A stretch of DNA of 42,472 bases from the NCBI GenBank assembly GCA_905478245.1, contig CAJQHT010000010.1:1-42472 (forward strand), in the 5' to 3' direction. This document shows, in pieces, positions 1-41,937 of the stretch. The notes beneath the pieces were generated by a model. That model was not told the origin of the DNA, made no database searches, and was given only the letters and a program-made list of their open reading frames with translations. Both the position numbers and the translations under genes were made by a program. Source of the DNA: an uncultured Rickettsiales bacterium. Its GTDB lineage: Bacteria > Pseudomonadota > Alphaproteobacteria > Rickettsiales > UBA1997. Within the stretch, counting starts at the first letter, position 1. Every line of letters starts with the position of its first letter.

Positions 1-122
1 CTCTTTAGTAATATGTTTTGAAGAGTAGGTCATGATAATTAGAGTTTATGTTGTTAAAGACTCTGATTATTTTAGCTGGCTTTATTTATTATTCAAGGAA
101 GAAATTAATTTATGGAAATGGT

Positions 123-219
123 ATAACTCAAGTTGTTCTTTTGCTTTCCCAGTATATTTATTATACTGGTTTCCTTTCGTGTTTTATCGTGATCAAATGG
201 ATTAATATCTGTTTTTTAG
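123..219 (-). pseudogene. Decayed duplicate of an internal ispA segment
   Basis: This stretch aligns base for base with positions 1151-1253, inside the functional ispA gene further along, in the same orientation. The first 24 bases are identical, a middle block of about 15 bases has diverged with a deletion of about five bases, and the rest is about 80% identical. The deletion and substitutions destroy the reading frame, so it cannot encode a working enzyme. The small plus-strand open frame that crosses it (48-257) looks accidental. I infer an old partial duplication. The rest of 1-336 holds no gene that I can support. Confidence 0.7.
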
Positions 220-303
220 GGCATGTCACTATTTTTATAAATTTCTTGACTTTTTAATGTTTATTAATTATAATTTATTTACAAATTGCCAATAGGCATC
301 TGC

Positions 304-323
304 GGCTCTCTTCACTGAGAGCC
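304..323 (-). terminator. Hairpin downstream of the PemK-like gene
   Basis: A perfect 7-bp stem (GGCTCTC/GAGAGCC) with a 6-base loop lies 13 bp past the stop codon of the toxin-like gene. No clear T-run follows on the minus strand, so it is at best a weak intrinsic terminator or an mRNA-stabilising hairpin. Confidence 0.35.
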
Positions 324-336
324 AAATAAATCAAAA

Positions 337-726
337 TCATCCCAATATAGTTTCACTAAGTATTTTTCTGATTTCCTCAAATTGATTACCTGTTAATCTA
401 CCCATTTTTGTTGTTAGTCTTTTTGAATCCCATAATCTTAATTGAGAAATCATTACACATTGCTCCTTATCTTTGAAATGAATCTTTTTGTAATAAGGCT
501 TTTCTTTTATTTGCGTGGTTAATGGTACTCCCCAAAATATACGATTGTTGAATTTTCTGATTACTAATATCGGTCGAGAGGAAACTTTTCCTTTACCATT
601 TTCTTCATCGCCAATATTTGCGCCTAAATGACACCACCAAATATCTCTTTGTTTAAAAGCTGGACCAATTTCTTTTCCGTCTAATTTTTGTTTTAAAATA
701 CTCCAATTGTCAAAATCTTTTTCCAT
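337..726 (-). CDS. PemK/MazF-family toxin, orphan
   Basis: The 129-residue protein matches the PemK/MazF type II toxin family, which are mRNA endoribonucleases. The N-terminal region leads into RDIWWCHLG (residues 27-35), followed by a Gly-rich segment, SRPILVIRKFN (50-60) and FWGVPLTT, the expected order of conserved blocks in this fold. Family members are usually encoded with a small antitoxin. Here neither side offers one: upstream lie 328 bases of repeats and downstream only the ispA relic. It may be a degraded toxin-antitoxin pair, a solitary toxin, or a family member with another role. No antitoxin-like short frame was recognised. The family call is fairly firm; activity is unknown. Confidence 0.75.
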   Translation of the reverse strand: MEKDFDNWSILKQKLDGKEIGPAFKQRDIWWCHLGANIGDEENGKGKVSSRPILVIRKFNNRIFWGVPLTTQIKEKPYYKKIHFKDKEQCVMISQLRLWDSKRLTTKMGRLTGNQFEEIRKILSETILG

Positions 727-780
727 AATTTAGTTTGGTATTTTTATTTTTTGCTGTTTTATTTTAATTGCGCTGAACCT

Positions 781-849
781 ATACCATTTTAACTTATAAA
801 TGAATTTAATCATTTAATAAAATATCTGTTTTAGAAGTTAAAATGGTAT
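781..849. repeat. Short palindromic element, type A
   Basis: A 69-bp element bounded by perfect 15-bp inverted repeats (ATACCATTTTAACTT and its complement). Its centre is AT-rich. A 28-bp internally deleted version occurs at 11623-11650. It is separated by a single T from the next element at 851. The gap 727-1054 consists almost entirely of these elements and holds no gene. Confidence 0.75.
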
Positions 850-850
850 T

Positions 851-1024
851 ATACCAAATCCCATTCTTTAATGAATGATATAACAAAATATTTTTTGTAA
901 GAAAAATTATAAAAAACGAGTCGTAATATGTACATATTTCGCGAGGCTTTTTATGATTTTAATCAAAAAATATAAAGTTAGATTATTTATTATTTTAACC
1001 CATTTTAAAGGTGGGAATTGGTAT
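851..1024 (+). repeat. Full-length palindromic element, type B copy 1
   Basis: A 174-bp element with imperfect terminal inverted repeats of about 20 bp (left ATACCAAATCCCATTCTTTA, right the complement of ATACCAATTCCCACCTTTAA). The middle has a hairpin core centred on the 14-bp palindrome AATATGTACATATT, flanked by A-rich and T-rich arms. A second copy at 15001-15174 has the same length and about five differences by my reading. It has no coding capacity, which fits a miniature inverted-repeat element or palindromic repeat family. Confidence 0.85.
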
Positions 1025-1025
1025 T

Positions 1026-1054
1026 ATACCAAATCCCACCTTTAATGAATGATA
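1026..1054 (+). repeat. Truncated left end of the palindromic element
   Basis: The left-end sequence of the family (ATACCAAATCCCACC, then TTTAATGAATGATAT) starts one base after the previous copy and stops exactly at the ispA stop codon (1055-1057). Confidence 0.75.
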
Positions 1055-1960
1055 TCACCGATCCCTTATAACAATAAACTCAGCTAATTGTTTTAATAAA
1101 TTTGCTTTACTACCAAATGGCTTAAGATGTAAAACTGCCTGATCGTGAAGTAACTCAAGTTGTTCTTTTGCTTTTTGCATGCCTAAAATATTAATAATAC
1201 TGGTCTCATTTCGTGTTTTTTCGTGATCAAAGGGATTAATATCCATTTTTTTAGAAGATTGGCCAGTGTGATCGAGTATGTCGTCTTTAATTTGAAAGGC
1301 TAGGCCAATATCGTGGGCATATCTAGCTAAATGCTGCCTCATTACGGGCTGGGTTTTTCCAACTATTGCTCCAGCCTCTACTGCTGCCATAAACATCTCG
1401 CCTGTTTTTAATCTGTGAAGCCTGGCAATTATTTCAGGGGTAAGACTATTGTCACCCGTTGATTCAAGGTCCATCATTTGCCCGCCAGCCATTCCGTTAA
1501 AGCCAATTGATTTTGATATTATATTTATTAATTCGCATCTAATGTGTGGATCAGGATTGGTTTGAGGATCTGATAATATTTGGAAGGCATATGTTAATAA
1601 GGAATCTCCGGCAAGAATTGCCGTAGCCTCGTTAAACTTCTTGTGACAGCTTAATTGGCCACGGCGATAATCATCGTCATCCATTGCTGGCAAATCATCA
1701 TGAATAAGAGAATAAACATGAATAAATTCTATTGCTGTTGCTACATCAATGACATCTTCTGAATCTACTCTAAATATTGCAGCAGCAGCTATTGTTAAAA
1801 ATGGTCTGATTCTTTTTCCTGGGGATAAGGCGCTATATCTCATAGCTTCAATTAATTTTGATTCTTTAAATTGCTCATTTTTTGGCAATAAAGAATCAAT
1901 TCTTTTGTTTACTAATTGGGTTATTTGGTTAAATGCGCCATCAAGATCAGAATCAATCAT
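1055..1960 (-). CDS. ispA: Polyprenyl (farnesyl/geranyl) diphosphate synthase
   Basis: IspA-type prenyl transferase, which condenses isopentenyl diphosphate with allylic diphosphates to make farnesyl or longer chains for quinones and undecaprenyl carrier. GKRIRP (residues 48-53), the first Asp-rich motif DDLPAMD (88-94), the Gln/Thr-rich middle helices and the second Asp motif in FQIKDDILD (about 225-233) are all present. At about 301 residues it has the usual length. I place the start at the ATG at 1960, one base after the uvrA stop; an in-frame TTG at 1969 would add three residues and overlap uvrA. It is the last gene of the infA-uvrA-ispA operon. The stop codon abuts a palindromic repeat. 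Bacterial FPP and GGPP synthases are hard to separate by eye, so chain length is not certain. Confidence 0.92.
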   Translation of the reverse strand: MIDSDLDGAFNQITQLVNKRIDSLLPKNEQFKESKLIEAMRYSALSPGKRIRPFLTIAAAAIFRVDSEDVIDVATAIEFIHVYSLIHDDLPAMDDDDYRRGQLSCHKKFNEATAILAGDSLLTYAFQILSDPQTNPDPHIRCELINIISKSIGFNGMAGGQMMDLESTGDNSLTPEIIARLHRLKTGEMFMAAVEAGAIVGKTQPVMRQHLARYAHDIGLAFQIKDDILDHTGQSSKKMDINPFDHEKTRNETSIINILGMQKAKEQLELLHDQAVLHLKPFGSKANLLKQLAEFIVIRDR

Positions 1961-1961
1961 T

Positions 1962-4874
1962 TTATGCAATGTTAATTTTTATATTATTATTGTCTTTGGT
2001 TAATAATTTTGCTAAATATGACCCAGTAACAGAGTCTTTGTTTTTTATGACCGCCTCAGGGGTGCCTTGCGCAACAATATAGCCCCCACTATCTCCTCCG
2101 CTTGGGCCGATATCTATAATCCAGTCTGAAGTTTTTAATACATCTAAATTATGCTCAATAACAACAACGCTATTGCCATTATCTACTAGCTTGTGCAGAA
2201 CCTGTAAAAGCTTATCTATATCTTCAAAATGCAATCCCGTGGTAGGTTCGTCCAGAATGTAGAGAGTATTGCTTGTTGCCTTTTTGCTAAGCTCACGAGA
2301 AAGTTTAATTCTTTGGGCTTCGCCGCCGGAAACTGTTGTAGCACTTTGTCCTATTTTTATATAATTAAGACCCACATCACATAGCGCTTTAAATTTATCA
2401 TAAATATGAGGCATAGATCTAAAGAAATCTGCCGCCTCTTGTGCATTCATTTCTAATATATCGGAAATGGATTTATTTTTATATTTTATTTCTAAGGTTT
2501 CACGGTTGTATCTTTTTCCATGACACACATCGCACATAACATAAACATCTGGCAGGAAATGCATCTCAATTTTAATTAAGCCGTCTCCTTGGCAATTCTC
2601 GCATCTGCCACCTTTTACATTAAAGGAGAATCTTCCGGATTTATAGCCTCTGGATCTTGATGCTGGTAAATTTGTAAAGAAATCTCTTATTGGGGTAAAG
2701 GCGCCAATATAGGTACAAGGGTTTGATCTTGGGGTTCTGCCAATTGGAGATTGATCTATCTGAATTATTTTATCAATATTTAAAGCACCTGTAATTTCAT
2801 CAAAAGGTCCAGGAGTGACTCTTGATTTATTAATAATTTTACCTAAGGCTTTATATAGTGTATGAATTATTAGGCTAGATTTTCCGCCTCCAGATATTCC
2901 GCAAACAGAAGTAAAGACTCCTAAAGGTAAATTTAAATCTACATTTTTTAAATTATTTGCCCTGGCATTTGTAATTCGAATACTTCTAGAAAAATCAACC
3001 TTTCTTCTTTTTTCGGGAAGGGGAATAGATTTTTTGCCGCTAAGATATTGTCCTGTAATACTATTCGGGTCATTAATTACTTCTTCTGGAGTTCCTTGGG
3101 AAATTATATTTCCGCCAGCCAGTCCTGCTCCGGGGCCAACATCTATCAAGTAATCAGCCTCAAGCATCATTTCCTCATCATGCTCAACCACAAGAACGGA
3201 ATTTCCCAAAGCTTTTAATTCTTTTAAGGTTGTTATTAATTTATTATTATCAGATTGATGTAGTCCAATTGAAGGCTCATCTAAAACATACATTACTCCA
3301 GAAAGTCCAGATCCAACCTGTGAGGCTAATCTTATTCTTTGAGCCTCTCCGCCAGAAAGACTGCCAGCTTTTCTATTTATAGTTAAATATTCTAAGCCAA
3401 CATTTTTTAGAAAAGATAATCTTTTATTAACTTCTTTTAACAATCTATCCGATATTGCTCGCTCTGATGCATTAAGTTTTTTGGGTAAGTCGTTAAACCA
3501 TTTGATGCTATTTGCAACAGACATTTGACTTAATTCTCCAATATGTAGATTGTTAATTTTTACACATAATGATTGCTCGCTTAATCTATAGCCTTGGCAT
3601 CTATGGCATTGTTTTAGATTTTGATATTTTACCAGCTCTTCTACTGCTAAGTTTCCTTTAGCATCACTAAGTCTGGCCTCAAGCTCACCTATTACGCCCT
3701 TAAAAATATGCTTAGCTTTAAAAGTTTTATAGCCATCATCATATTCTACCTCTATTTCCTCATTACAGCCATATAAAATAATATTTTTTATTTTTTCGTC
3801 AAGATTCTTGTAAGGCCTATTTAGGTCAAATTTGAATTTATTGGATAGGGAAGCTAATATTTGTTGATAATAGCGAGATTGAGGACCATTATTCCACACG
3901 GAAATAGCTCCTTGTTGTAGGGTTAGATTATCGTCGCTTATTATTAATTCTTCATCAAAGCATAATTCTGTTCCAAGTCCATCGCAAGATTTACATGCTC
4001 CATAAGGGCTGTTAAATGAGAAAAGTCTAGGCTCGATTTCAGATATGGTAAATCCTGATTTAGGGCAGCAAAATTTTTCAGAAAATATTAATATGTCATT
4101 TTTCTTTATATTGTCGCCATCATTTGCAGTAAAGACATCCATATTTTCAGGCAATTTAAATATCTCAACAAAAAGTAATCCTCCTGATATTTGCAGGGCA
4201 GTTTCAACAGAATCGGCAACTCTATTGCCTAATTCATCAGAGGTGACAATGCGATCAACCATAACCTCAATATCATGTTTCTTATTTTTATCGATATGAG
4301 GTAAATTTTTTAATTCATAAACTTTACCATCAATTTTTACTCTTTGAAAACCTTGCTTCTTTATAGATAATAATTCTTTTTTATGCTCACCCTTCTCTCC
4401 CCTAACTATTGGCGCTAAGATATATAATTTTGTTTTTTCTGGCAATTCAAGAATCTTTTTAACAATTTGTGATGGTGATTGACTGCTAATAGGTAAATTT
4501 GTTGCTGGAGAATATGGAACTCCAATTCTGGCATATAAAAGACGAATATGATCATATATCTCCGTAACAGTTCCCACGGTAGAACGTGGATTTCTAGAGG
4601 TAGTTTTTTGATCAATAGCAATTGCCGGAGAAAGCCCTTCTATTGATTCAACATCTGGCTTATCTTGCATATTAAGAAATTGCCTTGCATAAACTGAAAG
4701 ACTTTCTATGTAGCGCCTTTGCCCTTCTGCATATATGGTATCAAATATCAGTGAAGATTTTCCAGAGCCACTGAGCCCGGTTACAACAACTAATTTTTCT
4801 TTTGGTATATTGATGCTTATATTCTTTAGGTTATGCTCCTTTGCTCCTATTACCTTAATAAATTGCTCTTTCAT
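1962..4874 (-). CDS. uvrA: Excinuclease ABC subunit A
   Basis: UvrA is the damage-recognition ATPase of nucleotide excision repair and works as a dimer that loads UvrB. The 970-residue protein has two ABC modules: Walker A GLSGSGKSS (about 33-41) and GISGGGKSS in the second half, two LSGGEAQRI signature motifs, and Walker B sequences ending in VLDEPS and ILDEPT. The zinc-binding CxxC pairs are visible (for example CENC and CDVCHGKRY in the second module). The length is slightly above the E. coli protein (940), as in many alphaproteobacteria. It sits 17 bp after infA and one base before ispA, so the three are probably one transcript. Confidence 0.98.
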   Translation of the reverse strand: MKEQFIKVIGAKEHNLKNISINIPKEKLVVVTGLSGSGKSSLIFDTIYAEGQRRYIESLSVYARQFLNMQDKPDVESIEGLSPAIAIDQKTTSRNPRSTVGTVTEIYDHIRLLYARIGVPYSPATNLPISSQSPSQIVKKILELPEKTKLYILAPIVRGEKGEHKKELLSIKKQGFQRVKIDGKVYELKNLPHIDKNKKHDIEVMVDRIVTSDELGNRVADSVETALQISGGLLFVEIFKLPENMDVFTANDGDNIKKNDILIFSEKFCCPKSGFTISEIEPRLFSFNSPYGACKSCDGLGTELCFDEELIISDDNLTLQQGAISVWNNGPQSRYYQQILASLSNKFKFDLNRPYKNLDEKIKNIILYGCNEEIEVEYDDGYKTFKAKHIFKGVIGELEARLSDAKGNLAVEELVKYQNLKQCHRCQGYRLSEQSLCVKINNLHIGELSQMSVANSIKWFNDLPKKLNASERAISDRLLKEVNKRLSFLKNVGLEYLTINRKAGSLSGGEAQRIRLASQVGSGLSGVMYVLDEPSIGLHQSDNNKLITTLKELKALGNSVLVVEHDEEMMLEADYLIDVGPGAGLAGGNIISQGTPEEVINDPNSITGQYLSGKKSIPLPEKRRKVDFSRSIRITNARANNLKNVDLNLPLGVFTSVCGISGGGKSSLIIHTLYKALGKIINKSRVTPGPFDEITGALNIDKIIQIDQSPIGRTPRSNPCTYIGAFTPIRDFFTNLPASRSRGYKSGRFSFNVKGGRCENCQGDGLIKIEMHFLPDVYVMCDVCHGKRYNRETLEIKYKNKSISDILEMNAQEAADFFRSMPHIYDKFKALCDVGLNYIKIGQSATTVSGGEAQRIKLSRELSKKATSNTLYILDEPTTGLHFEDIDKLLQVLHKLVDNGNSVVVIEHNLDVLKTSDWIIDIGPSGGDSGGYIVAQGTPEAVIKNKDSVTGSYLAKLLTKDNNNIKINIA

Positions 4875-4891
4875 TGTTGTAAAATCTATAT

Positions 4892-5110
4892 TTAAGTATT
4901 TCTTCTGGTTATTCTGCCTTTTGTTAGGTCGTAAGTTGTCATTTCTACTTCGACCTTGTCTCCTTTTAGGATGCGAATTTTATTTTTACGTATTTTTCCA
5001 GAAGCGTGAGCTGTAATTATATGGCCATTTTCTAGCTCAACACGAAATATTGTATTAGGCAAAACCTCAACTACAACACCATCCATTGTTAGTAAATCTT
5101 CTTTAGGCAT
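4892..5110 (-). CDS. infA: Translation initiation factor IF-1
   Basis: The 72-residue S1/OB-fold protein binds the ribosomal A site during initiation. The sequence carries the standard IF-1 order: [20 protein letters not shown], the [20 protein letters not shown] block, [18 protein letters not shown] and a final RR. Length and start fit the family exactly. It leads the operon with uvrA and ispA; it is a highly expressed gene, so the operon promoter probably lies in the preceding repeat-filled gap, though I could not pick one out. Confidence 0.97.
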
Positions 5111-5287
5111 ATGAAATAATTATTTATGATTAATATTATGTTTGATTTCATGCCAGTACTTTTATTGAATGAGGCTGCATAACAAAAATATTTTACAATT
5201 ATATAGCTATTTAAAAATAGTATTTGGCATTAATCATTCTTCGTTAATGACCCTATCACATCATGTATCATTATGTCAAGTTTTATT

Positions 5288-5410
5288 ATATCATTCATTA
5301 AAGGTAGGAATTGGCATCATATTTCACGAGGCTTTTTATAGAATTCTAACAAAAAGATGCAGAAAGATAAGCTTGTTTGATTATTATAACTTAAAGATGA
5401 GTTTTGGTAT
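5288..5410 (+). repeat. Composite palindromic element in the gap before infA
   Basis: The 304-bp gap 5111-5414 holds no gene. It contains an inverted left end (ATCATTCATTAAAGGTAGGA, then ATTGGCAT) followed at once by the right half of a type C element: CACGAGGCTTTTTAT, AACAAAAAGATGCAG, then TTAAAGATGAGTTTTGGTAT. This looks like one element disrupted by another. Confidence 0.65.
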
Positions 5411-5414
5411 TAGA

Positions 5415-6089
5415 TTATTTATCGTTACAAGAGTGCTTTTTTAAGCCACCTATTGCATAAGATGGCTGTTTTTCTTTTTTTAAAGGACTTAATTGAGAAT
5501 TTCTGCTAAAAAATAACGAGGTAACAGAAGTATTGTGTTTTGAGGGTCTAAATCCATAAAAATCAATCTGGATAAAATCTAGCTCATCTTTTATTAATTT
5601 GGCACTGTTTGGAAACCAGTCAGAATTATCCAATATTATCAGCCCATCTTCTTTGATGGATTTAATGGTATTTTTAGCACATTTTAGTCTATTTTCATTG
5701 CAGTCAATAATAATTACATCATATTTTTTGTTATTTTTTAATATGAAATTTCTATATTCTTCCTCTTTTTTAAATTCTAGAATATAGTTGCTTCTATTTT
5801 GGCATTTTAATTTTTCTTGAATATTTTTAAGCCAATCTTGGTTATTTTCTATGGAGGTAACATTTTTTGCTATTTTAGACCAAAATATTGTGGAGTTACC
5901 GGCGCCAAATTCAAATATTTCTTTTTCTGAAAAATCTAGGCTTTTAATATATTCTATTGCTGGATAGCTGTAAAGCGGTATGGCCTCGCCATTTACATCT
6001 ATGGGTAAATTTAAATTCATGGAGCCTTTAAAGCCGTACCCTTCTGTGAATATTTTCTCAATATTTTTGAAATAGTTAATTTGTTGCAT
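5415..6089 (-). CDS. SAM-dependent methyltransferase-like protein
   Basis: The 224-residue soluble protein resembles class I SAM-dependent methyltransferases. EFGAGNSTIFWSK (about 80-92) is a glycine-rich motif I, TSIENN (about 98-103) fits the acidic end of the second strand, and YDVIIIDCNENR followed by GLIILDNSDW fits motifs around strands 4 and 5. This arrangement is seen in small predicted methyltransferases of unknown substrate. It starts four bases after the stop of the TonB-dependent receptor gene, so the two are almost certainly cotranscribed and probably iron-regulated. The substrate cannot be told from sequence. The last 25 residues are polar and may be a non-conserved tail. Confidence 0.7.
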   Translation of the reverse strand: MQQINYFKNIEKIFTEGYGFKGSMNLNLPIDVNGEAIPLYSYPAIEYIKSLDFSEKEIFEFGAGNSTIFWSKIAKNVTSIENNQDWLKNIQEKLKCQNRSNYILEFKKEEEYRNFILKNNKKYDVIIIDCNENRLKCAKNTIKSIKEDGLIILDNSDWFPNSAKLIKDELDFIQIDFYGFRPSKHNTSVTSLFFSRNSQLSPLKKEKQPSYAIGGLKKHSCNDK

Positions 6090-6093
6090 TATT

Positions 6094-8280
6094 TTAAAAA
6101 TCTATTTTAAAGCCAATTCGCGCTGTAAATGGTTTGCCTGGTCTTAGTCCAGCTGGCCTTGCGGCAACAGCATATTCTTTGTTAAAAATATTATCCACGG
6201 CAAATAAAAGATCTTTGTCTGGCAAAAATTCATAAGAAGCAGCAAAGTCAGTTACAAAATGTGAAGGAATTTTTTCTTCCTTGGCAATAGACCCTGTTCC
6301 AGCTTTTGTTCTCATGGCGCTAACAAATTTATTTGATAAATTTAGATTAAATTTATTAAACTCTGCTCCAATTGATAAAGCAATTTGATGTGGTGCTACA
6401 TATGGCATTTCGTCGCCCTTTGTAACATCTCCCCATTCCTCAAGCCCGCCTTCAAATGAGCTTTTAAACTCGCTTTCAATATAGGTGTAAGAGGCTCGAA
6501 TTGGGAAGTTCACTTGATTTTTTATAATATTTGTCTTTATTCTATATAAAGATGCCAGCTCCAGGCCTTTAACCTGAACTGCTCCGCCATTATATTGATC
6601 ACCAAGGGAGCCAACCTCTTCTACTAGAAGATTTTTATAATCATTAAAAAACAAGACGGATTCTAAGAATAAATTACCATTTCTGAATCTTGTTCCTATT
6701 TCGTAATTAACTGATTCTTCGGGATCGGCTTCATTGCCAGGTGTTGCTGATGCAAAACCCTTATGAATGCCGCCAAAAATATTTAAATTATCAGCAATTT
6801 TGTAATTTGCTGAAATTCCAGGAATTAAAACGTCCTCCGAGGTTTTGGTGGTAGTCGCATTAGTTCTGGCAGTGTCATTTTCATTATCATAGTCTTTTCT
6901 TTTAAGCTTAATACTTTCAAAGCGCAGGCCCGGAGCTAATGTTAATTTATTAATTCTAATTTCATCCTCAACAAAAACCGAAAAAGCCCTGCTTTTATTA
7001 ATACGATTTCCGGCATCTCCAGCTTCTCCTGCTTCGCTTAGGGATATTTCTCCATTTGTCATATCATAATGATGGGTATATTGCATGCGATCTTCATAAT
7101 CATCATGATATCTCATGCCATATTCTAAATTATGCTTAAAATCACCAATGTTAAATTTATTATTAGCGATAGATTGTATTCCCTGTGAAACATATTTTCT
7201 ATTATTAGCTTTAATATCCAGAACTCCATCAGACTCTCCTTTAGCAATGCTTAAAAAATCAGAATCACTAAATATTTCGCTAATAGATTTCGTGACGCTG
7301 CTGGAATTTGTTATTGCATCTAATTTATACCAATTTCTATCAAATTCATGATAATAAGCAGTATTTGTTATGTTGAAATTCTTGCTCGGCTCAATAAAAT
7401 GTTTCACTTCATATTGATAGTGATTAGCCTTCATATTATCAAGAGCGCTTGCTTTGTATCTTCTATATGGATTATCAACAAAATCCTCTAAACTAAGACC
7501 TAAATATGTTTCATTTGATTCTTCAACATTAGTGGCAATTTTAAATTCAATTGCTTGGAATATTTCAGAATCCTGACCATTATTGAATCTAATTTTGGTC
7601 ATAAAGTCAGATAATTCATAGCCAGTATCTCCGCCGCCATCAAGCTCTTTAAAACCATCTGATAATTGCTTGTCTATATTTATTACATAGCCAAAATTAT
7701 CAAAAGAATCGCCATAATTTATATTAATATTATTTTCATTATAGCTTCCTGTTGAGATGTTAAAAGTTCCTTTGGCAAAATCTGGAATTGGGGTGGTTAT
7801 TAAATTTACAGCTCCTGCGGTGGTTCTGGGGCCATATTTGATAGATGAAGAGCCTTTTCTAACTTCAATGCCTTTAATTCTGCCCGAAGATGGAAAATAA
7901 TAGGCTGAAGGAGCGCTATAGGGAGCTGGAGCAATTAGGATGCCATCCTCCATCAGGGTGATATTACCGCTTCTGTCATTGCCGCTGCCTCTAATGCCAA
8001 TATTTGGACGCAGGCCATAACCATCTTCTTCTTGTATATTGATACCCGGAACTTCTCTAATTAATCTTTGAATGTCATTTGTTTGTTTTTTATCTACTTC
8101 TTCTGGAGAGATATAGCTAGCAGAGCTAGTAAAATTGCTAGGAATTTGATATATTCCTTGATCTTGATCTTTTTTTACAATAATTGTTGGGGTAATGCCG
8201 TAATTATCTGCGAAGGCTGGGCTGGAAATTATAAAAATGCCTATCATTAGGCTATATATAGTGTTAATTGCACTTTTCAT
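6094..8280 (-). CDS. TonB-dependent outer membrane receptor, FecA-like
   Basis: The 728-residue protein has a signal peptide ending near SSPAFA (residue 24), a plug domain (about 55-170) with IQRLIREVPGINIQ, LRPNIGIRG, ITLMEDGILIAPAPYSAP, IEVRKGSSSIKYGP and AGAVNLIT, then a 22-strand type barrel ending in the terminal aromatic motif GFKIDF. The C-terminal NIFNKEYAVAARPAGLRPGKPF segment is typical of the family. The plug resembles ferric-citrate type receptors; the true substrate is unknown, but iron is likely because a strong Fur-box match lies 42 bp upstream. PTIIV near the mature N terminus (about 31-35) could be the TonB box. It is divergent from tonB and followed closely by a methyltransferase-like gene. 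Confidence 0.93.
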   Translation of the reverse strand: MKSAINTIYSLMIGIFIISSPAFADNYGITPTIIVKKDQDQGIYQIPSNFTSSASYISPEEVDKKQTNDIQRLIREVPGINIQEEDGYGLRPNIGIRGSGNDRSGNITLMEDGILIAPAPYSAPSAYYFPSSGRIKGIEVRKGSSSIKYGPRTTAGAVNLITTPIPDFAKGTFNISTGSYNENNININYGDSFDNFGYVINIDKQLSDGFKELDGGGDTGYELSDFMTKIRFNNGQDSEIFQAIEFKIATNVEESNETYLGLSLEDFVDNPYRRYKASALDNMKANHYQYEVKHFIEPSKNFNITNTAYYHEFDRNWYKLDAITNSSSVTKSISEIFSDSDFLSIAKGESDGVLDIKANNRKYVSQGIQSIANNKFNIGDFKHNLEYGMRYHDDYEDRMQYTHHYDMTNGEISLSEAGEAGDAGNRINKSRAFSVFVEDEIRINKLTLAPGLRFESIKLKRKDYDNENDTARTNATTTKTSEDVLIPGISANYKIADNLNIFGGIHKGFASATPGNEADPEESVNYEIGTRFRNGNLFLESVLFFNDYKNLLVEEVGSLGDQYNGGAVQVKGLELASLYRIKTNIIKNQVNFPIRASYTYIESEFKSSFEGGLEEWGDVTKGDEMPYVAPHQIALSIGAEFNKFNLNLSNKFVSAMRTKAGTGSIAKEEKIPSHFVTDFAASYEFLPDKDLLFAVDNIFNKEYAVAARPAGLRPGKPFTARIGFKIDF

Positions 8281-8321
8281 TTTAATAAATATTTAATTTT
8301 ACTTGACTTTTACAAAAGAAT

Positions 8322-8340
8322 GATAATAATTATCATTATC
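8322..8340. promoter_or_regulatory. Fur box between the receptor gene and tonB
   Basis: GATAATAATTATCATTATC matches the classical 19-bp Fur consensus GATAATGATAATCATTATC at 17 of 19 positions. It lies in the divergent intergenic region, so one bound Fur could repress both directions. Confidence 0.85.
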
Positions 8341-8356
8341 AATGGCTTAAATTTAG

Positions 8357-8371
8357 TGATAACAATTATCA
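8357..8371. promoter_or_regulatory. Second Fur-like palindrome
   Basis: TGATAACAATTATCA is a 15-bp imperfect palindrome close to the Fur core and lies 16 bp past the first box on the tonB side. It may extend Fur binding. Confidence 0.5.
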
Positions 8372-8376
8372 AAGTC

Positions 8377-8423
8377 AATATTTTTTTTAATATTTTTTTT
8401 AATATTTTTTTTAATATTTTTTT
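8377..8423. repeat. Tandem 12-bp repeat upstream of tonB
   Basis: Four head-to-tail copies of AATATTTTTTTT (the last one base short in its T-run) fill the space between the Fur boxes and the tonB start at 8439. Such repeats can change copy number during replication. Confidence 0.9.
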
Positions 8424-8438
8424 CTTATATTAATTTTT

Positions 8439-9029
8439 ATGTTTCTAGTACAGAAAATAAGAACATATCATTCTTTTATAATTTCAGCATTATTTCATAT
8501 GTTGATTTTGGCGGCTATAGTTAATATATTCAGCAATAAAGCTGATTTAAATAATATAGCTGAAATTAATCCTGTGGCAATTATAAGTGGCAGCCAATTC
8601 GCTAAAATTACCAAAAGCTTTAATAGAAATGACGATTCGTCTAGCTTTCAAGCATCTCAATTGAGGAAGGGAAGCAATAAGTCGGCTATGATTAATGGCG
8701 TCATTTCCAATTTAGCGCCTAAAAAATCTGATAATTACGATAATAGCTATTTAAATTTAGTTGCCCATAAAATTGAGCAGCATAAATCCTATATAAGCAT
8801 GTTTTCTGCTCCAAGCGGTATTAAATCTGAAGTTATATTTAAGGTAAAATTAGATGAGTCGGGAGAGCTTGATTCTTATAAAATGGTACAATCTTCTAAT
8901 TATGGCTTTTTCAACAAAGCTGCTATCAAAATATTGAAAATATCCTCTCCATTTCCTAAGCCACCTTTAAAAAATGGCTCCAGATCAGCGGAATTAACTA
9001 TACCAATAGTTTTTGACACTATTTCTTAG
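8439..9029 (+). CDS. tonB: TonB-family energy transducer
   Basis: The 196-residue protein has a single N-terminal membrane helix (about 12-32) and a C-terminal TonB domain (about 105-195): YLNLVAHKIEQHKSYI, VIFKVKLDESGELDSYKMVQ, an AAIKILK helix and FPKPP leading to LTIPIVF. TonB couples inner-membrane proton-motive force to outer-membrane receptors, here presumably the divergent neighbour. The usual Pro-rich spacer is missing and is replaced by a Ser/Asn/Lys-rich stretch, so the periplasmic reach may be short. No exbB or exbD is nearby. Expression is probably under the Fur box at 8322. No Shine-Dalgarno sequence precedes the ATG. Confidence 0.88.
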   Translation: MFLVQKIRTYHSFIISALFHMLILAAIVNIFSNKADLNNIAEINPVAIISGSQFAKITKSFNRNDDSSSFQASQLRKGSNKSAMINGVISNLAPKKSDNYDNSYLNLVAHKIEQHKSYISMFSAPSGIKSEVIFKVKLDESGELDSYKMVQSSNYGFFNKAAIKILKISSPFPKPPLKNGSRSAELTIPIVFDTIS

Positions 9030-9065
9030 TTCTTTTAAGGTAAAGTGTTGGATTGTAGAACTGTA

Positions 9066-10484
9066 TTAGCAGCTATAATACATTTCAAATTCACAAGGAT
9101 TAGGAGCGTTATTATGTATTTCCACTTCTTGTCTTTTTAGGCTGATATAAGCATCTATTTGTTCGTCAGTAAATACTCCGCCCTGCTTTAGAAAGGCTCT
9201 ATCTCTGCTTAAGGCATTAAGAGCTTCCTCGAGAGAGCGAGCAACATTTGGAATTTTCTTTAATTGCTTATCTGATAAGTCGTAAAGATCTCTATCGTCA
9301 GAATTCCCTGGGTGAATTTTATTTTTAATGCCATCTAATCCAGCCATCAACATTGCTGAAAAGGCTAAATAAGGATTTGCTACTGGATCTGGGAATCTAG
9401 TTTCTATCCTTTTAGCTTTTTGATTGGTTACATGTGGAATTCTTATTGATGCAGATCTATTCTTAGCAGAATATGCTAATATTACAGGTGCTTCAAAGCC
9501 AGGAACTAGTCTTTTATAACTATTTGTTGAAGGATTTGTGAAAGCATTTAAGCTCTTAGCGTGCTTGATTATGCCTCCAATGTAATACAAGGCCATGTCA
9601 GATAGATTAGCGTAGCCATCTCCTAAGAATAATGGCTTTCCTTCCTTCCAGATAGATTGATGAACATGCATTCCAGAGCCGTTATCACCCAGAACTGGTT
9701 TTGGCATGAATGTTATAGTTTTGCCATATGCGGCAGCAGTATTCTTGGCAACATATTTAAATTTTTGTACATTATCAGCCGTTTCCACTAATGTGCTATA
9801 TTGGAAACCAATTTCAGATTGAGAATTTGCCACCTCATGATGGTGCAATAGAGGCTCTAAACCAACCTCTTCCATAGATTTGACAATTTCATTTCTTAAA
9901 TCTTTTGATCTGTCTGTTGGTGATGAATCAAAATAAGAGCTTTTAACTGCCGATCTGTGGCCTAAATTTCCTAATTCATATTCAGTTTCGTTATTTATTG
10001 CATCTTCCTCTGATTCAATTTGATAAAAAGAATGTTGAGCGCCACTTTTAAATCTTACACTGTCAAATATAAAGAATTCTGGCTCTGGGCCAAAATAAGC
10101 GGCATCACCAATTCCTGTGGATTTTAGATATTCTTCTGCTAATTTTGCTGTATGTCTCGGGTCTCTTTCATATCCTTTATTGTTTGTTGGCTCAATTACA
10201 TCGCAAATTAGTGATATTGTTGGCTCTGCACAAAAGGGATCAACAAAAATTGAATTAAGCTGAGGCATTAAAATCATGTCAGATTCATTAATTTTTTTCC
10301 AGGCAGGAACGGATGAGCCATCAAAAGATACGCCCCTTGTAAGGCTTTCTTCACTTACCTGATTGGCGCAATGCGTTATATGAATCCATTTGCCATTATA
10401 GTCTGTAAATCTGAAATCAACAAATTTAATTTCCTTTTCTTTGATTATGCTGAAAATGTCAGCCACTGATAATGCTTTTTTCAT
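9066..10484 (-). CDS. glnA: Glutamine synthetase, type I
   Basis: GlnA makes glutamine from glutamate, ammonia and ATP and is the entry point of nitrogen assimilation; type I enzymes are dodecamers. The 472 residues match the family length. Visible blocks are FDGSSVPAW (about 53-61), GPEPEFFIFD, NSQSEIGFQ with the metal-binding Glu, NGSGMHVHQS, NPSTNSYKRLVPGFEAP and the metal/substrate block RIETRFPDP. LYDLS near residue 400 holds the Tyr that GlnE adenylylates in GSI-beta enzymes, so activity is probably under covalent control. It is a single-gene unit, convergent with tonB (36-bp gap), with its own sigma-70-type promoter at 10536-10564. Confidence 0.98.
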   Translation of the reverse strand: MKKALSVADIFSIIKEKEIKFVDFRFTDYNGKWIHITHCANQVSEESLTRGVSFDGSSVPAWKKINESDMILMPQLNSIFVDPFCAEPTISLICDVIEPTNNKGYERDPRHTAKLAEEYLKSTGIGDAAYFGPEPEFFIFDSVRFKSGAQHSFYQIESEEDAINNETEYELGNLGHRSAVKSSYFDSSPTDRSKDLRNEIVKSMEEVGLEPLLHHHEVANSQSEIGFQYSTLVETADNVQKFKYVAKNTAAAYGKTITFMPKPVLGDNGSGMHVHQSIWKEGKPLFLGDGYANLSDMALYYIGGIIKHAKSLNAFTNPSTNSYKRLVPGFEAPVILAYSAKNRSASIRIPHVTNQKAKRIETRFPDPVANPYLAFSAMLMAGLDGIKNKIHPGNSDDRDLYDLSDKQLKKIPNVARSLEEALNALSRDRAFLKQGGVFTDEQIDAYISLKRQEVEIHNNAPNPCEFEMYYSC

Positions 10485-10535
10485 AATTTAATAAAATTTA
10501 AAGATTATATTGATTGATAAATTTACTACCACAAA

Positions 10536-10564
10536 ACAATATTGCTTATTTTTAATAAAGTCAA
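10536..10564 (-). promoter_or_regulatory. Sigma-70-type promoter of glnA
   Basis: On the minus strand TTGACT is followed after exactly 17 bases by TATTGT, about 50 bp upstream of the glnA start. I see no sigma-54 promoter motif. The remainder of the 307-bp gap 10485-10791 shows no gene, only AT-rich sequence and a small hairpin near 10640. Confidence 0.6.
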
Positions 10565-10791
10565 GCATTATTCTTGTCATAAGTTGCAAAAAAGAGTTTT
10601 TTCTCTTATAATTGATGGTTTTTAGTAAGAAAATTAGAGAAATTAGAGTATTTTACTCTTAAATATGGCAAAACATAGTCTAATTTTTGTATTTCTGCAA
10701 TATATTATTTTCTAAATTCAAAAAATATCATTTCTTGCGTCATAAAGTTAAAGAAATCATCATAGATCTATCATATTTTATGATTTCATGC

Positions 10792-11565
10792 CTAATTTTC
10801 TTGAAAAGCACTCTTTTTTGGCAGTTTAGCAAAGATTGGATCAGTTATCTTGGTAGAAATGAGAGACATTAACCAGACAATAAAATATAAAGGAAAAGGA
10901 AAGGCAATTCTTGACTTATTTTTCCTCAAGCCTCTTTTTATTATTTTAGCTGCTTTTTCCGCCTTCATTAAGAATGGCATTGGAAATTCATTAACATCTG
11001 TCATGGGGGTTTTTATGTATCCTGGACAAATAACGCTAACTTTTATTCCCAGGCTAGATAGCGAGCCCCTTAGGCCCTCGCCATAAACTCGAACCGCAGC
11101 CTTGCTGGCGCTATAGGCCGGAGAGCTGGGAAGTCCTCTTAACCCGGCAAGAGATGACATTAGGGCAATTTGGCCATATTTTTGTTTTTCCATAATTCTT
11201 ATCGCCGGGTTAATTATATTTAAAACACCATTAACATTAGTATCAAAAATATCAGCTATTTGTTTTTCATTTTCAATTCCACCTGCTGTTCCAGCTGAAA
11301 TGCCGGCATTGGCAATGATTATGTCTAATTTAAATTTTTTCCCAATTTCTTCTATCCATTTTTTAGTCTCTATTTTGTCGCGCACATCCAGTATTTTAGT
11401 AAAAACTTTCAAGCCCTCTTTTTTGCAAGATTTTGCTGTTTTTTCTAGCTCTTTCTGATTTCTTCCACTTAAAAATAGAATATTTTCTTTATTTTGAGTA
11501 TATTCAAGAGCTAGCGCCCTTCCAATCCCACTGCTTGCTCCGGTAATTAATATTGTTCTTGCCAT
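10792..11565 (-). CDS. Short-chain dehydrogenase/reductase (classical SDR)
   Basis: The 257-residue NAD(P)-dependent oxidoreductase has a cofactor-binding TGASSGIGRALA near the N terminus (8-19), NAGIS (about 88-92), the catalytic Ser in MSSLAG and the YSASK catalytic Tyr/Lys pair, followed by CPGYIKTPM. SGR after the second strand suggests preference for NADP(H). The C-terminal 40 residues are hydrophobic and basic and might associate with the membrane. It stands alone between the glnA promoter and the divergent tmk gene, so the substrate cannot be inferred. Confidence 0.9.
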   Translation of the reverse strand: MARTILITGASSGIGRALALEYTQNKENILFLSGRNQKELEKTAKSCKKEGLKVFTKILDVRDKIETKKWIEEIGKKFKLDIIIANAGISAGTAGGIENEKQIADIFDTNVNGVLNIINPAIRIMEKQKYGQIALMSSLAGLRGLPSSPAYSASKAAVRVYGEGLRGSLSSLGIKVSVICPGYIKTPMTDVNEFPMPFLMKAEKAAKIIKRGLRKNKSRIAFPFPLYFIVWLMSLISTKITDPIFAKLPKKSAFQEN

Positions 11566-11622
11566 TTTATTGATTTTAATTATTAATAGTTTTAGAATTA
11601 AATTTTTCTTAATTAACTTATA

Positions 11623-11650
11623 ATACCATTTTAACTTCTAAAACTGGTAT
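11623..11650. repeat. Internally deleted type A palindromic element
   Basis: ATACCATTTTAACTTC is followed directly by TAAAACTGGTAT. The ends match those of the 69-bp element at 781-849 but the AT-rich middle is gone. Confidence 0.6.
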
Positions 11651-11697
11651 TTTACTAAATAATTAAGTTTAATCATTGTAATCAACAAAAGCAAATA

Positions 11698-12315
11698 ATG
11701 AAATATAAATTTATTACATTCGAGGGCATTGAGGGTTGTGGCAAGTCAACCCAAAGCAAGCTTTTGGCTGAATTCTTTCAGAAAAGAAACATTCAAACCG
11801 TCCTAACTAGAGAGCCCGGAGGTACTAAAGTTGCTGAAGAAATACGAAAAATATTAGTCAATGGAGATGTTAATAAAATGGACGGAATTACGGAGACATT
11901 ACTAAATTTTGCGGCCAGAAGGGATCATGTGGAAGATTTAATAAAACCAGCCCTAAAAGAGAAAAAAATAGTAATTTCAGATCGTTTTTTTGATTCAACT
12001 TTAGCCTATCAGGGCTATGGCTATGAAGGGGATTTGGAAAATATAAAGCGAATTCAAGAAAGCTCAATTGGCAATTTTGCCCCAGACATTACATTTTTAA
12101 TCGATATCGATGTTGATATTACTATGCAAAGAATACAAAATAGGGAAGATAATAATCGATATGAGGATATGAGCTTATATTTCCATAAAAGAGTAAAGAA
12201 TGGATTTGATGATATCTCTAAAATCAATAAAAACAGATTTAGGGTGATTAATGGTAAGAAATCAATTAAAGAAATACATTGGGATATTTTATTTTGCCTA
12301 GAATTGATTGCATAA
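11698..12315 (+). CDS. tmk: Thymidylate kinase
   Basis: Tmk phosphorylates dTMP to dTDP for DNA synthesis. The 205-residue protein has the P-loop FEGIEGCGKSTQ (about 8-19), the TREPGGT substrate motif (about 37-43), SDRFFDSTLAYQG with the DR(Y/F) motif, and a lid region with RYEDMSLYFHKRV. Length is usual. It is convergent with znuA; only a truncated palindromic repeat lies between the two stop codons, and the last base of the stop codon is the first base of that repeat. Neither holB nor other replication genes, its frequent partners, are adjacent. Confidence 0.96.
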   Translation: MKYKFITFEGIEGCGKSTQSKLLAEFFQKRNIQTVLTREPGGTKVAEEIRKILVNGDVNKMDGITETLLNFAARRDHVEDLIKPALKEKKIVISDRFFDSTLAYQGYGYEGDLENIKRIQESSIGNFAPDITFLIDIDVDITMQRIQNREDNNRYEDMSLYFHKRVKNGFDDISKINKNRFRVINGKKSIKEIHWDILFCLELIA

Positions 12316-12372
12316 TACCACAAAGTCCGTCTTTAATGAATGATACAGGCAAAATATTTTTAGATAAAAATT
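12315..12372 (+). repeat. Truncated palindromic element between tmk and znuA
   Basis: ATACCACAAAGTCCG, CTTTAATGAATGATAC and AAAATATTTTTAGA follow the left half of type B. It fills the whole space between two convergent genes. Confidence 0.7.
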
Positions 12373-13281
12373 CTAAGGATGAGTCTTGTCAGAAAGACAA
12401 TTTTGATAAGATTTACTGATATTTTTCATCAATTTAAGGTATAATTCATCGGAGGGCTCCAGATTCATTCCCACTGGGTCTATTGCTACAATTTCTGCTC
12501 TTGATCCTTTTGCTATTATATTGCTGAACTTCTTATTAAATTGTGGTTCAAAGAATATACACTTTATATCTTCATTGCGAGCTTTAATCTTATTCTTTTT
12601 TAAGTTTTTAATTGAAACATTTAGATGTGGTTTCTGAGTTATTTGACCTGCATTTTGCAAAAAGAATTGATTTTCAAAATATTGAAAAGCATCATGGAAT
12701 ACAATAAATTTCTTATTTTTTAATGGCTCTAATTCAAGCTCCAATTCTTGATATAGAGCGTTGATTCTTTGTATGGCTATGTCATATTTTTTTCTGTATG
12801 TTTTTGTATGTTTTGGGTTCATTTTTTCTAAATTATCTTTAATTATCTTTAAAATTCTTTTTGCGTTTTTTGTATCTAACCAAATGTGACTATCAATATA
12901 TTTATCATCAATTTTTGCCCCTTGCTTCTTCCAGTCTCTACTAGATCTTGTTTTGTAAAGTCTTAATCCTTTTTCTTTTAATAGTTTAATTTTTTTAGCT
13001 TTCTGATTATTAGCTATGGATTTGGCAAAAGAGGATTCTAGAGAGTCGTCAATGTAAAATATTATATCAGCATTCTCTATAAATTTAATATTAGATGGCT
13101 TGACATTAAATGAATGAGGACTCTTTTTGCCATCAATTGCTAAATAAATATCGTCAGAATTATGGGCTATCATTCTTATTAGTGAATCGACAGGTTTAAT
13201 TGACGATACAATTTTGGCAGAGAAGGCTGTATTAACAGGAAGAATCAGAAATAATAATATTATTTTTATCCAGAAATTCAT
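12373..13281 (-). CDS. znuA: Zinc ABC transporter substrate-binding protein
   Basis: The 302-residue periplasmic protein has a signal peptide (cleavage near AFSA, residue 22) and the cluster A-I zinc-binding fold. Metal ligands of ZnuA are recognisable: His in SPHSF (about 55-58), His in SHIWLD (about 131), His in FHDAFQYF (about 195) and the acidic residue in AIDP (about 270). The usual His/Asp-rich loop before the second ligand is replaced by a Lys/Arg/Asp-rich stretch with no histidines. It is divergent from znuCB across 186 bp. Zinc is the likeliest substrate given the neighbours; manganese cannot be excluded. Confidence 0.88.
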   Translation of the reverse strand: MNFWIKIILLFLILPVNTAFSAKIVSSIKPVDSLIRMIAHNSDDIYLAIDGKKSPHSFNVKPSNIKFIENADIIFYIDDSLESSFAKSIANNQKAKKIKLLKEKGLRLYKTRSSRDWKKQGAKIDDKYIDSHIWLDTKNAKRILKIIKDNLEKMNPKHTKTYRKKYDIAIQRINALYQELELELEPLKNKKFIVFHDAFQYFENQFFLQNAGQITQKPHLNVSIKNLKKNKIKARNEDIKCIFFEPQFNKKFSNIIAKGSRAEIVAIDPVGMNLEPSDELYLKLMKNISKSYQNCLSDKTHP

Positions 13282-13400
13282 TTAATAAATTTAGATTGTA
13301 ATTACTAAAATTAACTATTAACATTGGAAGGGCTTTAATAAAGGTCTATTTACCAATAAATTATATAGTAAAAATATAAAGCTGCTACATTGTAATATTT

Positions 13401-13437
13401 AGCCCATTCTAGCAATGGGATCTGGCATTATATTAGA
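13401..13437 (+). repeat. Relic of a palindromic element right end
   Basis: CCCATTCTAGCAATGGGATC, then TGGCATTAT resembles the right end of the family (CCCATTTTAAAGATGGGAAT, then TGGCATTAT). It lies between znuA and znuC. No convincing Zur operator was found in this 186-bp region. Confidence 0.4.
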
Positions 13438-13467
13438 TTAGCATAAATTTAAGATCAACCCTTAAAA

Positions 13468-14959: not shown

Positions 14960-15000
14960 TTTTATGGCATAAATAGTTACTTTCTTATTAATGTAAATTT

Positions 15001-15174
15001 ATACCAAATCCCATTCCTTAATGAATGATATAACAAAATATTTTTTGTAAGAAAAATTATAAAAAACGAGTCGTAATATGTTCATATTTCGCGAGGCTTT
15101 TTATGATTTTAATCAAAAAATATAAAGTTAGATCATTTATTATTTTAACCCATTTTAAAGATGGGAATTGGCAT
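15001..15174 (+). repeat. Full-length palindromic element, type B copy 2
   Basis: The same 174 bp as the copy at 851-1024, with about five base differences by my reading, including one at the very centre of the hairpin core (AATATGTTCATATT here). It lies between znuB and the lysine N-methylase gene. A TTG codon in its right end (15168) is in frame with that gene. Confidence 0.88.
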
Positions 15175-15194
15175 TATATAAATATTCTAAATCT

Positions 15195-16385: not shown

Positions 16386-16451
16386 AAATGGCATAATACC
16401 ATTTTTCTTGACAAAACAGAATTAGGTTCCTAGAATTAGGCCGATAATAAT

Positions 16452-16500
16452 ATCAAGATCCATTTCTAAATAACTTATATTTAAAGATGGATCTTGGTAT
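16452..16500. repeat. Miniature palindromic element (core deleted)
   Basis: A 49-bp inverted repeat: ATCAAGATCCATTTCTAAAT, seven bases, then the imperfect complement ending TTGGTAT. It corresponds to the two ends of the type C element at 16606 with the central core missing. It lies in the 524-bp gap before metE (16386-16909), which has no gene and is largely made of repeats; near 16506 two copies of GATATCAAATT also occur. Confidence 0.65.
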
Positions 16501-16605
16501 AAGTTTTGATATCAAATTCGATATCAAATTTTATGTTTGAAGCGAGTCCGCATTTCACATAGTTTTGATTTAGGTAATATTAATTTCATAAATCAAATCT
16601 GTATT

Positions 16606-16777
16606 ATACCAAAATCTATTTTTAAATAGCTTATATTCAAAATATTTTTTGAATAAAAATTATAAAAAACGAGCTGCAATATGGTTATATTTTACAAGGC
16701 TTTTTATGATTTTTAACAAAAAAGATGAAGAAGATAAGTTTATTTAATTATTATAATTTAAAGATGGATTTTGGCAT
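16606..16777 (+). repeat. Full-length palindromic element, type C
   Basis: A 172-bp element with terminal inverted repeats ATACCAAAATCTATTTTTAA and the near complement (TTTAAAGATGGATTTTGGCAT, trimmed). The core has the same design as type B (AAAAAACGAGCTGCAATATG, then TTTTACAAGGCTTTTTATG) but has diverged. It is followed after one T by another element. Confidence 0.8.
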
Positions 16778-28517: not shown

Positions 28518-28611
28518 ATACCAATTCCTACCTTTAATGAATGGTATAGCTAAATAATTTTTGGCAGAAAATAAACAGTATAAATATAGCGCTGTATATG
28601 AATTTTGGTAT
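28518..28611 (+). repeat. Palindromic element between metal-cluster genes
   Basis: A 94-bp element: left end ATACCAATTCCTACC, TTTAATGAATGGTAT, right end GAATTTTGGTAT. The interior is shorter than in type B and includes TATAGCGCTGTATA, another palindrome. It lies inside an apparent operon, so it might separate the small protein from the downstream genes. Confidence 0.65.
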
Positions 28612-37650: not shown

Positions 37651-37765
37651 TATCATTTTATAACTTACTAACTTATAAATGAGTTAAATTCTAGATATTT
37701 TTATAGTAAAATTATTAAAAAACGAGCGCAATATGATCATATCGTACGAAGCTTTTTTGATTCTA
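37651..37765 (+). repeat. Palindromic element core between convergent genes
   Basis: AACTTATAAATGAGTTAAAT, then ATTAAAAAACGAGCGCAATA, then TGATCATATCGTACGAAGCT and TTTTTTGATT follow the core of types B and C, with ATATGATCATAT at the centre. It fills the gap between the giant gene and trpF and reaches the trpF stop codon at 37763. Confidence 0.65.
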
Positions 37766-38407
37766 GGCAAAAAGTCTCATAAAATCTTTTATAGCTTTTT
37801 TTGATTTCTGGCCGCGCTCTTCTTCTAAAGCTGAAGAAAGGTCAATCATTTTAGCATTAGTTTGTTTTAGAGCTTGAGCTAGATTATTTTTGTTGATTCC
37901 GCCTGATAAAAACCAATCTATCTGAATGTTTAGTTTATTTAAGATGTTCCAGTCAAAAGATTTTCCGCTGCCACCTTGATTTATATCATCCCTGTAATCA
38001 AAAAGAAAATAATGGCAATATTCTTCAAATTCAGCAATATTTTTTAAATCCCCAGCACCTGAAATGCTAAAGGCTTTGATTATAGGTAGTTGAAATTTAT
38101 TTTTTATTTCCCTGACTCTACTTAAACTTTCTTCACCATGTAGTTGCAGTAAATCAGGTTTTAGCAAATTTATAATTTGCGCTATTTTGCCGTCACTTTC
38201 ATTAACGATAACAGCAACTTTTTTAATTTCTTTTGGAATATCTTGAGTGATGTGTGAGATGTTTTTTAAATCAACGTCTCTGGAGGATTTTGCATAAAAG
38301 ACAAAGCCTATAAAATCTATGTTAAATTCACAGGCAAAATCTATATTCTCTTTGTCTTTGAAGCCGCAAAGCTTAATTTTAACTCTCTTATTCGAGATTA
38401 TGGCCAT
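37763..38407 (-). CDS. trpF: Phosphoribosylanthranilate isomerase
   Basis: TrpF opens the ring of phosphoribosylanthranilate in tryptophan synthesis. The 214-residue TIM barrel has the catalytic Cys in KIKLCGFKDKENI (about 10-22), GFVFYAKSSRDV with the SxR motif, QLHGEES (about 93-99), the second catalytic Asp in LFDYRDD (about 135) and IDLSSALEEERGQKS near 190, where DxSSxxE and GxK are expected. Phosphate-binding loops are present (FLSGGINKNN). trpB and trpA, its usual neighbours, are absent. A hairpin with a T-run lies just upstream of the start. Confidence 0.93.
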   Translation of the reverse strand: MAIISNKRVKIKLCGFKDKENIDFACEFNIDFIGFVFYAKSSRDVDLKNISHITQDIPKEIKKVAVIVNESDGKIAQIINLLKPDLLQLHGEESLSRVREIKNKFQLPIIKAFSISGAGDLKNIAEFEEYCHYFLFDYRDDINQGGSGKSFDWNILNKLNIQIDWFLSGGINKNNLAQALKQTNAKMIDLSSALEEERGQKSKKAIKDFMRLFA

Positions 38408-41733: not shown

Positions 41734-41937
41734 AAAATATATATTTATACTAAACCCCTTGTCTAAATTGCAGATATGCGGCAAGCTTGTCTTCATTTAT
41801 CTTTTTTTGATTAAAATTTATAAAAAGCTTTGTTAAAATATAACTATTTTACAGCTCATTTTTGTAATTTTATCTAAAAAAGATCTTGCTCTATATTGCT
41901 CATTAAAGATGGACTTTAGTATTAGTTAAGATTGAAG

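Follow-up and report, generated by a model that had tools for sequence, protein, structure and literature searches.

The window (here, the whole 42,472-nt stretch of Rickettsiales DNA analyzed) contains short repeats with TACCA ends in the gaps between its genes, as the initial annotation had pointed out, which raises the question of what these repeats are and how they spread. The motif TWATACCA occurs 25 times, compared with 3.9 times expected, and none of 100 shuffled versions reached 25. Our analysis indicates that the repeats very probably constitute a new MITE family (here, family A), i.e., non-coding foldback elements of about 170 bp that are moved in trans by IS630-family (DDE_3) transposases with a 3-bp TNA duplication. 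Within the sources searched, this family is new, and its kind (MITE) is already known; among the papers containing any of six end sequences, none is titled on mobile elements (judged by title). The features of the window are listed in Table 1.

TABLE 1 Mobile-element features and neighboring genes in the window (TSD, target duplication)
Feature	Position	Strand	Basis or remark
End of resident IS630-family IS, transposase N-terminal side	1..123	-	Inverted repeat TACCATTTCCATAAATTAA reads leftwards from 123
Possible (candidate) transposase start, MTYSSKHITKE (11 residues)	33-1	-	Runs off contig
Right copy of 3-bp TSD TAA of resident IS	124..126	.	Flank comparison with C51
Decayed farnesyl-diphosphate synthase gene duplicate, split by IS	124..217	-	82% identity (83/101) to intact gene
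67-bp element, second end type, TACCATTTTAAC...GTTAAAATGGTA	782..848	+	Flanks CTA and TTA, non-identical
Left TSD TTA of 172-bp element	849..851	.	Flank reading
172-bp MITE, family A	852..1023	+	BLAST, profile, end reading
Right TSD TTA of 172-bp element	1024..1026	.	Flank reading
Truncated family A left end (further element)	1027..1054	+	Abuts stop codon of farnesyl-diphosphate synthase gene
Intact farnesyl-diphosphate synthase gene	1055-1969		
Empty site TAA for the IS insertion (window 1-123/C51), in intact gene	1151..1153	.	Homology of flanks
Diverged copy	5262..5409	+	Profile 26.2 bits, E 3e-7
Second-type end plus arm	11624..11676	-	Inverted copy of 796-848, 86%
Diverged, truncated copy	12326..12440	+	Profile 33.1 bits, E 2e-9
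172-bp MITE, family A, 97% identical to 852-1023	15002..15173	+	TTA at 14999-15001 and 15174-15176
Diverged family A copy	16608..16774	+	Profile 67.5 bits, E 4e-20
Short element, ends TACCAATTCCTA and TACCAAAATTCA, TTA both sides	28519..28610	+	Boundaries from end matches
End-pattern matches bounding the short element 28519..28610	28516-28530, 28599-28613	+, -	
Diverged copy	37673..37799	+	Profile 30.5 bits, E 1e-8
Diverged copy	41787..41920	-	Profile 38.7 bits, E 4e-11

The two long copies in the window had been described as 174-bp units at 851 and 15001 with about five differences. They are indeed near-identical (97.2% identity over 180 nt, i.e., 5 differences), but the true element is 172 bp plus a flanking TTA. 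Its sequence, TACCAA(A/T)TCCCA...TGGGAATTGGTA, is an imperfect palindrome along the full length. In the cluster at 781 to 1054, this element lies between a 67-bp element with a second end type and a truncated family A left end that belongs to a further element; no open reading frame (ORF) of 100 or more aa lies wholly inside the elements of the cluster, in agreement with the absence of coding capacity noted before. Besides type A, there are two more end types, TACCATTTTAAC (window 782 to 848) and TACCATTTCCAT.

The genome of the organism comprises 1,407,879 bases in 67 contigs and is 98.7% complete. BLAST against it, proposed initially as a check, finds the unit genome-wide, with at least 78 matches (40 of 294 first-look candidates scored; some places matched on both strands). 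A sequence-only profile built from 32 copies gives at least 147 matches at an E value of 0.001 or better in the same 1.41 Mb (150 of 4394 candidates scored; a few places matched on both strands), and a 15-nt end pattern occurs 157 times (80 + 77), compared with 6 (3 + 3) for the reversed control pattern. These BLAST and profile matches rule out a syntenic intergenic sequence without other copies, the case that had been named as arguing against mobility. For the anatomy of the family, we used 47 de-duplicated rows, each of at least 120 nt and at least 80% identity; of the 37 unique cores whose two ends could be read, 33 are 168 to 176 bp long.

Both ends and their flanks are readable in 38 of these 47 rows. 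TTA or TAA is present on both sides of 28 readable copies, and the two triplets are identical in every one of them (18 TTA, 10 TAA), for which the chance under independence is about 3e-8. The other 10 copies are 7 tandem junctions and 3 copies with a changed flank or a lost end. A second pass took 48 typed readings that were selected by the presence of TWA left and right (some nested or composite); the two triplets agree in 44 (A-A ends, 28/28; B-B, 9/11; A-B, 4/5; C-C, 3/4); the nonmatching ones have TTA left and TAA right in three cases, which fits a 2-bp TA duplication, and TAA left and TTA right in one. Among 101 distinct A-type ends in the fetched loci of this genome, the preceding triplet is TTA or TAA in 82, TCA in one, and TGA in one. 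Two listings, which include elements of relatives, were preselected for equal TWA on both sides and therefore provide no evidence for duplication among their elements.

According to a simple ORF caller, the 47 rows lie in tandem (22), divergent (9), and convergent (7) gaps, at contig edges (8), and in an ORF (1). The last figure bears on the palindromic elements of Rickettsia, which the initial annotation had offered as an alternative, i.e., protein-coding palindromes inserted in frame. They are alike in size and palindromic form, as far as the account in PMC10969869 goes, but the distribution here is intergenic (the single row inside an ORF of at least 80 aa sits in one of only 102 aa), and the target duplication and the IS630 ends also argue against an origin of this kind, which is barely credible.

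The MITE reading is supported by inverted-repeat ends, target duplications, many dispersed non-coding copies, and a family of transposases whose ends match. The last of these, for which a search had been suggested, is found in relatives, where IS630-family transposons carry such ends and mostly the same kind of 3-bp duplication. The transposases match PF13358 and the IS630 model NF033545; 3 of 7 scanned pieces (the second ORF of locus L160, L181, and the C-terminal part of L174) pass the NF033545 cut-off of 100 bits, and the remaining four, which are partial, score 45 to 90 bits. The L160 transposon of Vampirovibrio, 1083 bp long, is flanked by TTA left and right, has 25-bp inverted ends (TACCAATTCCAAGTTTAAATAGCGT), and contains two ORFs, HTH and DDE_3, which match the IS630 model; next to it lies a 161-bp MITE whose ends are similar. 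The same transposase group was revealed within the window's own taxonomic family by PF13358 and by a five-row alignment. In genome G004 of this family, the C-terminal IS630 end reads TWA followed by TACCAATTCCCATCTTTAATACTATAT at three places (L073, L194, and L200); compared with the right end of family A, its first 19 nt equal copies such as L004 and its first 12 nt equal window 852 to 1023. One full 1103-bp IS630 copy with TAA on both sides exists in G004, and G049 has a 1090-bp copy with TAA. The IS630 ends of G023 and G069 start with TACCATTTTAACTT, a 14-nt stretch that the B end also has. In the mechanism that we propose, an IS630 transposase would recognize inverted ends beginning TACCA, excise the element, and insert it at TNA (nearly always TTA or TAA here), duplicating 3 bp; the A and B families may be moved by this IS630 branch now or have been moved by it recently.

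The genome itself has a multicopy IS630 with TACCA ends that is collapsed in the assembly, and one of its ends is window 1 to 123. Contigs C12, C27, C51, and C65 each break off within one IS630 C-terminal end, at 123 to 124 bp, as does C15, found by a pattern search, at 45 bp; the other IS end lies 122 to 124 bp from the contig ends of C10 (the window), C24, C36, and C45, giving nine contig ends in total. Many contig ends inside one IS are the expected pattern because a multicopy IS collapses in short-read assembly. Neither a full-length IS630 nor an exact family A partner is present in the assembly of this genome, and PF13358 gave no match at an E value of 1e-5 in G000 (1 candidate). The end of the resident IS, TACCATTTCCATAA, is closer to family C (14 nt shared) than to family A (8 or 9 of the first 10 nt). 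The resident IS also has an empty site: the interrupted sequence, GTGAAGTAA-IS-TAACTCAAG (C51 side and window side), compares with GTGAAGTAACTCAAG in the intact farnesyl-diphosphate synthase gene, to which the left (C51) flank is 97% (101/104) and the right (window) flank 82% identical. Judged by this flank homology, a single IS insertion appears to have C51 on one side and window position 1 on the other. A decayed second farnesyl-diphosphate synthase copy (window 124 to 217; C51, L233, and L242), apparently split by the IS630, is found at a distance of about 1 kb from the intact one.

A 3-bp duplication is usual for IS5. It is also described as usual for PIF/Harbinger in the literature consulted, and the TWA duplication together with one decayed IS5-like gene in this genome (L105) would suit MITEs moved by a transposase of the IS5/PIF-Harbinger type. 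Such a partner was sought with PF01609 and PF13359 and is largely refuted: PF13359 found nothing in this genome, the single IS5-like gene is decayed and has other ends, and IS630 transposons with the ends and the 3-bp duplication of family A do exist. We consider this explanation highly improbable. The IS5-like gene is a broken transposase gene on contig C9 (L105, 911 to 1938) with ends GGGACCGTCGCAAA.

A 67-bp element identical to window 782 to 848 is present on contig C60 with TTA on both sides. Family C is a 314-bp element with ends TACCATTTCCATAATATAAT (L251 and L254, contigs C15 and C30), which share 14 nt with the resident IS630 end, and by its appearance it is a MITE of its own. When a family A copy was compared with five B elements, the longest exact runs were 43, 30, 14, 14, and 14 nt; the view that all B elements share a center of about 45 bp, considered at one point, is too wide a description of these runs. 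Head-to-tail copies joined TTGGTA/TACCAA, with no triplet between them, occur at L005, L006, L020, and L080 (contigs C38, C4, C7, and C32), and may have arisen when circles with joined ends entered a resident copy by recombination.

A DNA search at an E value of 0.001 gave matches, many of them short, in 21 of 49 genomes (this one included). The best relatives (G008, G012, and G023) are 71 to 75% identical over 160 to 180 nt, and the family is therefore older than one genus. The end pattern clearly exceeds the control in G004, G008, G012, and G064 and is near the control in most of the 125 genomes searched. Abutting ends were found in named genomes at 12 loci (8 cyanobacterial, 2 in Vampirovibrio, 1 in an alphaproteobacterial MAG, and 1 in Oscillospiraceae).

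The departure from the textbook lies in the 3-bp duplication at IS630-type elements; the textbook insertion of an IS630/Tc1/mariner element duplicates TA (as stated in the consulted part of PMC2170065). Among the records listed by our literature search, no statement of a 3-bp duplication for IS630 appears, although ISfinder entries may list some. Fifteen plasmid loci with near transposases were read, selected by choice from those listed among 788 and 1675 matching records. Identical TNA is present at 12 of these 15 annotated loci, ISAva6 included (TTA, TAA, TCA, and TGA, 3 each; the Roseomonas reading uses the second-ranked repeat pair), beside ends starting TAC at 10 and TTC at 2. The other three are a Thermus locus with TGA/TCA, an ambiguous one in Acidithiobacillus, and a Gloeocapsopsis locus that gave no ends. 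HTH and DDE are annotated as two CDS at 9 of the 15 loci and as one at 4, ISAva6 among the latter. ISAva6 and nearby IS630-family ISs (compared hosts: Trichormus, Moraxella, Acaryochloris, Polaromonas, Deinococcus, Azospirillum, and Rhizobium) are about 1.1 kb long and share with the present elements TAC-starting ends and the identical 3-bp TNA duplication, but they are autonomous and differ in their subterminal sequence, with 34 to 46% protein identity among the matches listed.

Within the order, 2-bp duplications occur as well. IS630s with other ends in G033 and G038 have TA at all 13 readable copies, the third base matching in none (14 loci); having other ends and TA duplications in the copies read, they were rejected as partners of the MITEs. 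An exception in G033 is copy L205, which belongs to the TACYA-ended class. Full-length IS630s of 1083 to 1138 bp have identical TWA at L160, L201, L205, and L235, whereas the same-class, TACYA-ended L203, L226, and L228, also full length, carry TTA on the left and TAA on the right, consistent with 2-bp TA. The shorter L230 (947 bp) and L210 (949 bp) combine TACCAA ends with TA duplications; TACCAA alone is therefore no predictor of 3 bp, and our confidence in the IS630 explanation is slightly lowered by these copies. The 3-bp rule in this IS630 branch is strong but not clean. As a tentative generalization, which could well be wrong, a branch of IS630/Tc1-mariner in Cyanobacteria, Deinococcota, and Proteobacteria might insert at TNA with a 3-bp stagger rather than at TA with 2 bp, and in this order a foldback core might have been re-ended, following different IS630 partners across genera. 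The latter idea is based on the central 43 nt of one B element and 30 nt of another that equal the A copy and on A/B hybrids with equal flanks.

Window 852 to 1023 folds along its full length on each strand (z scores of -5.8 and -5.4), and elements from three further genera in the same taxonomic family likewise fold over their whole length. The arms form 60 to 66 Watson-Crick pairs in nine elements and one consensus (159 to 202 nt) and 94 in the 314-bp element. One interpretation is that the repeat is a structured RNA or a regulatory element such as a bidirectional terminator that is maintained because it serves the cell, its mobility being secondary. Whole-length folding (z, -5.8), a central hairpin seen by eye between an A run and a T run in several genera, both-sided changes at 6 of 55 pairs, a number reached by none of 500 shuffles, and a terminator-like stem called inside the element are in line with it. 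Selection at the RNA level was nevertheless rejected: the changes in the consensus fold are mostly G-U, and the fold beats its shuffles and slid versions, but that structure was chosen with RNA energies. A first count, on an alignment with added columns and in a frame that was still RNA-chosen, gave 155 G-T and 62 A-C cells; when the arms were paired by symmetric DNA alignment, without RNA energies, G-T was not consistently in excess over A-C (ten elements and one consensus). Because the structure had been chosen with RNA energies and symmetric DNA pairing gave no excess, we dropped the fold as a sign of RNA function. There is also no Rfam match at gathering thresholds. The terminator role, plausible by eye, was rejected too: the scan calls one terminator-like stem inside the element, at its right end (999 to 1015) and not at the central hairpin, and terminator-like sites in window 1 to 20000 number 10, compared with 10.7 by chance.

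The surroundings of the copies bear on the same interpretation. In tandem gaps, the element opposes the genes in 18 of 22 cases, or 17 of 21 (17:4) with one array merged (two-sided binomial, 0.007, calculated by hand), and a separate pattern count, in which 128 overlapping hits were merged by hand into 23 tandem loci, found 18 opposed and 5 in the same direction. This bias, noticed post hoc after looking at the data, would favor a regulatory role, but copies sit in tandem, divergent, and convergent gaps alike. On balance, a cellular function of the repeat as RNA or regulator is quite improbable.

Mobilization by IS630 transposases, which we prefer, has parallels. RUP of Streptococcus pneumoniae duplicates TA. 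RUP and IS630-Spn1 offer a likeness, RUP being a short palindrome with IS630-like ends that is proposed to be moved by IS630, but RUP is 107 bp long, compared with about 170 bp, other ends, and a 3-bp TWA duplication here (PMC3049150, in the section consulted). RUP is also described as bunched with other repeats, as are the elements here (PMC10969869, in part). ISY100 of the Tc1-mariner-IS630 group has a DDE transposase of the same family that cuts and pastes between terminal inverted repeats; in the part of PMC2170065 consulted, its target is nearly always TA, and it duplicates 2 bp, in contrast to 3 bp here. QMITE1/2 of Coxiella are likewise foldback MITEs with tens of copies in a small genome, a likeness in form and copy number, but their duplications are 2 to 3 or 7 to 11 nt of variable sequence (PMC5896051, as excerpted).

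With this reading, about 150 palindrome matches in a reduced genome gain a mobile-element identity and a link to a transposase family. TNA and TA copies in one order form an internal control by which the 3-bp step of an IS630-type enzyme becomes directly testable, and the A/B hybrids make end recognition testable.

Two other observations concern genes near repeats in the window. The mechanical TTG start of a flagellin lysine-N-methylase homolog (15168 to 16385) falls inside the element at 15002 to 15173. Several palindromes of the TGTTTCACGTGAAACA type, which we take to be parS-like, lie at 21166 to 22540 and adjoin parA/parB homologs at 22582 to 24295; this is a probable chromosome partition locus.
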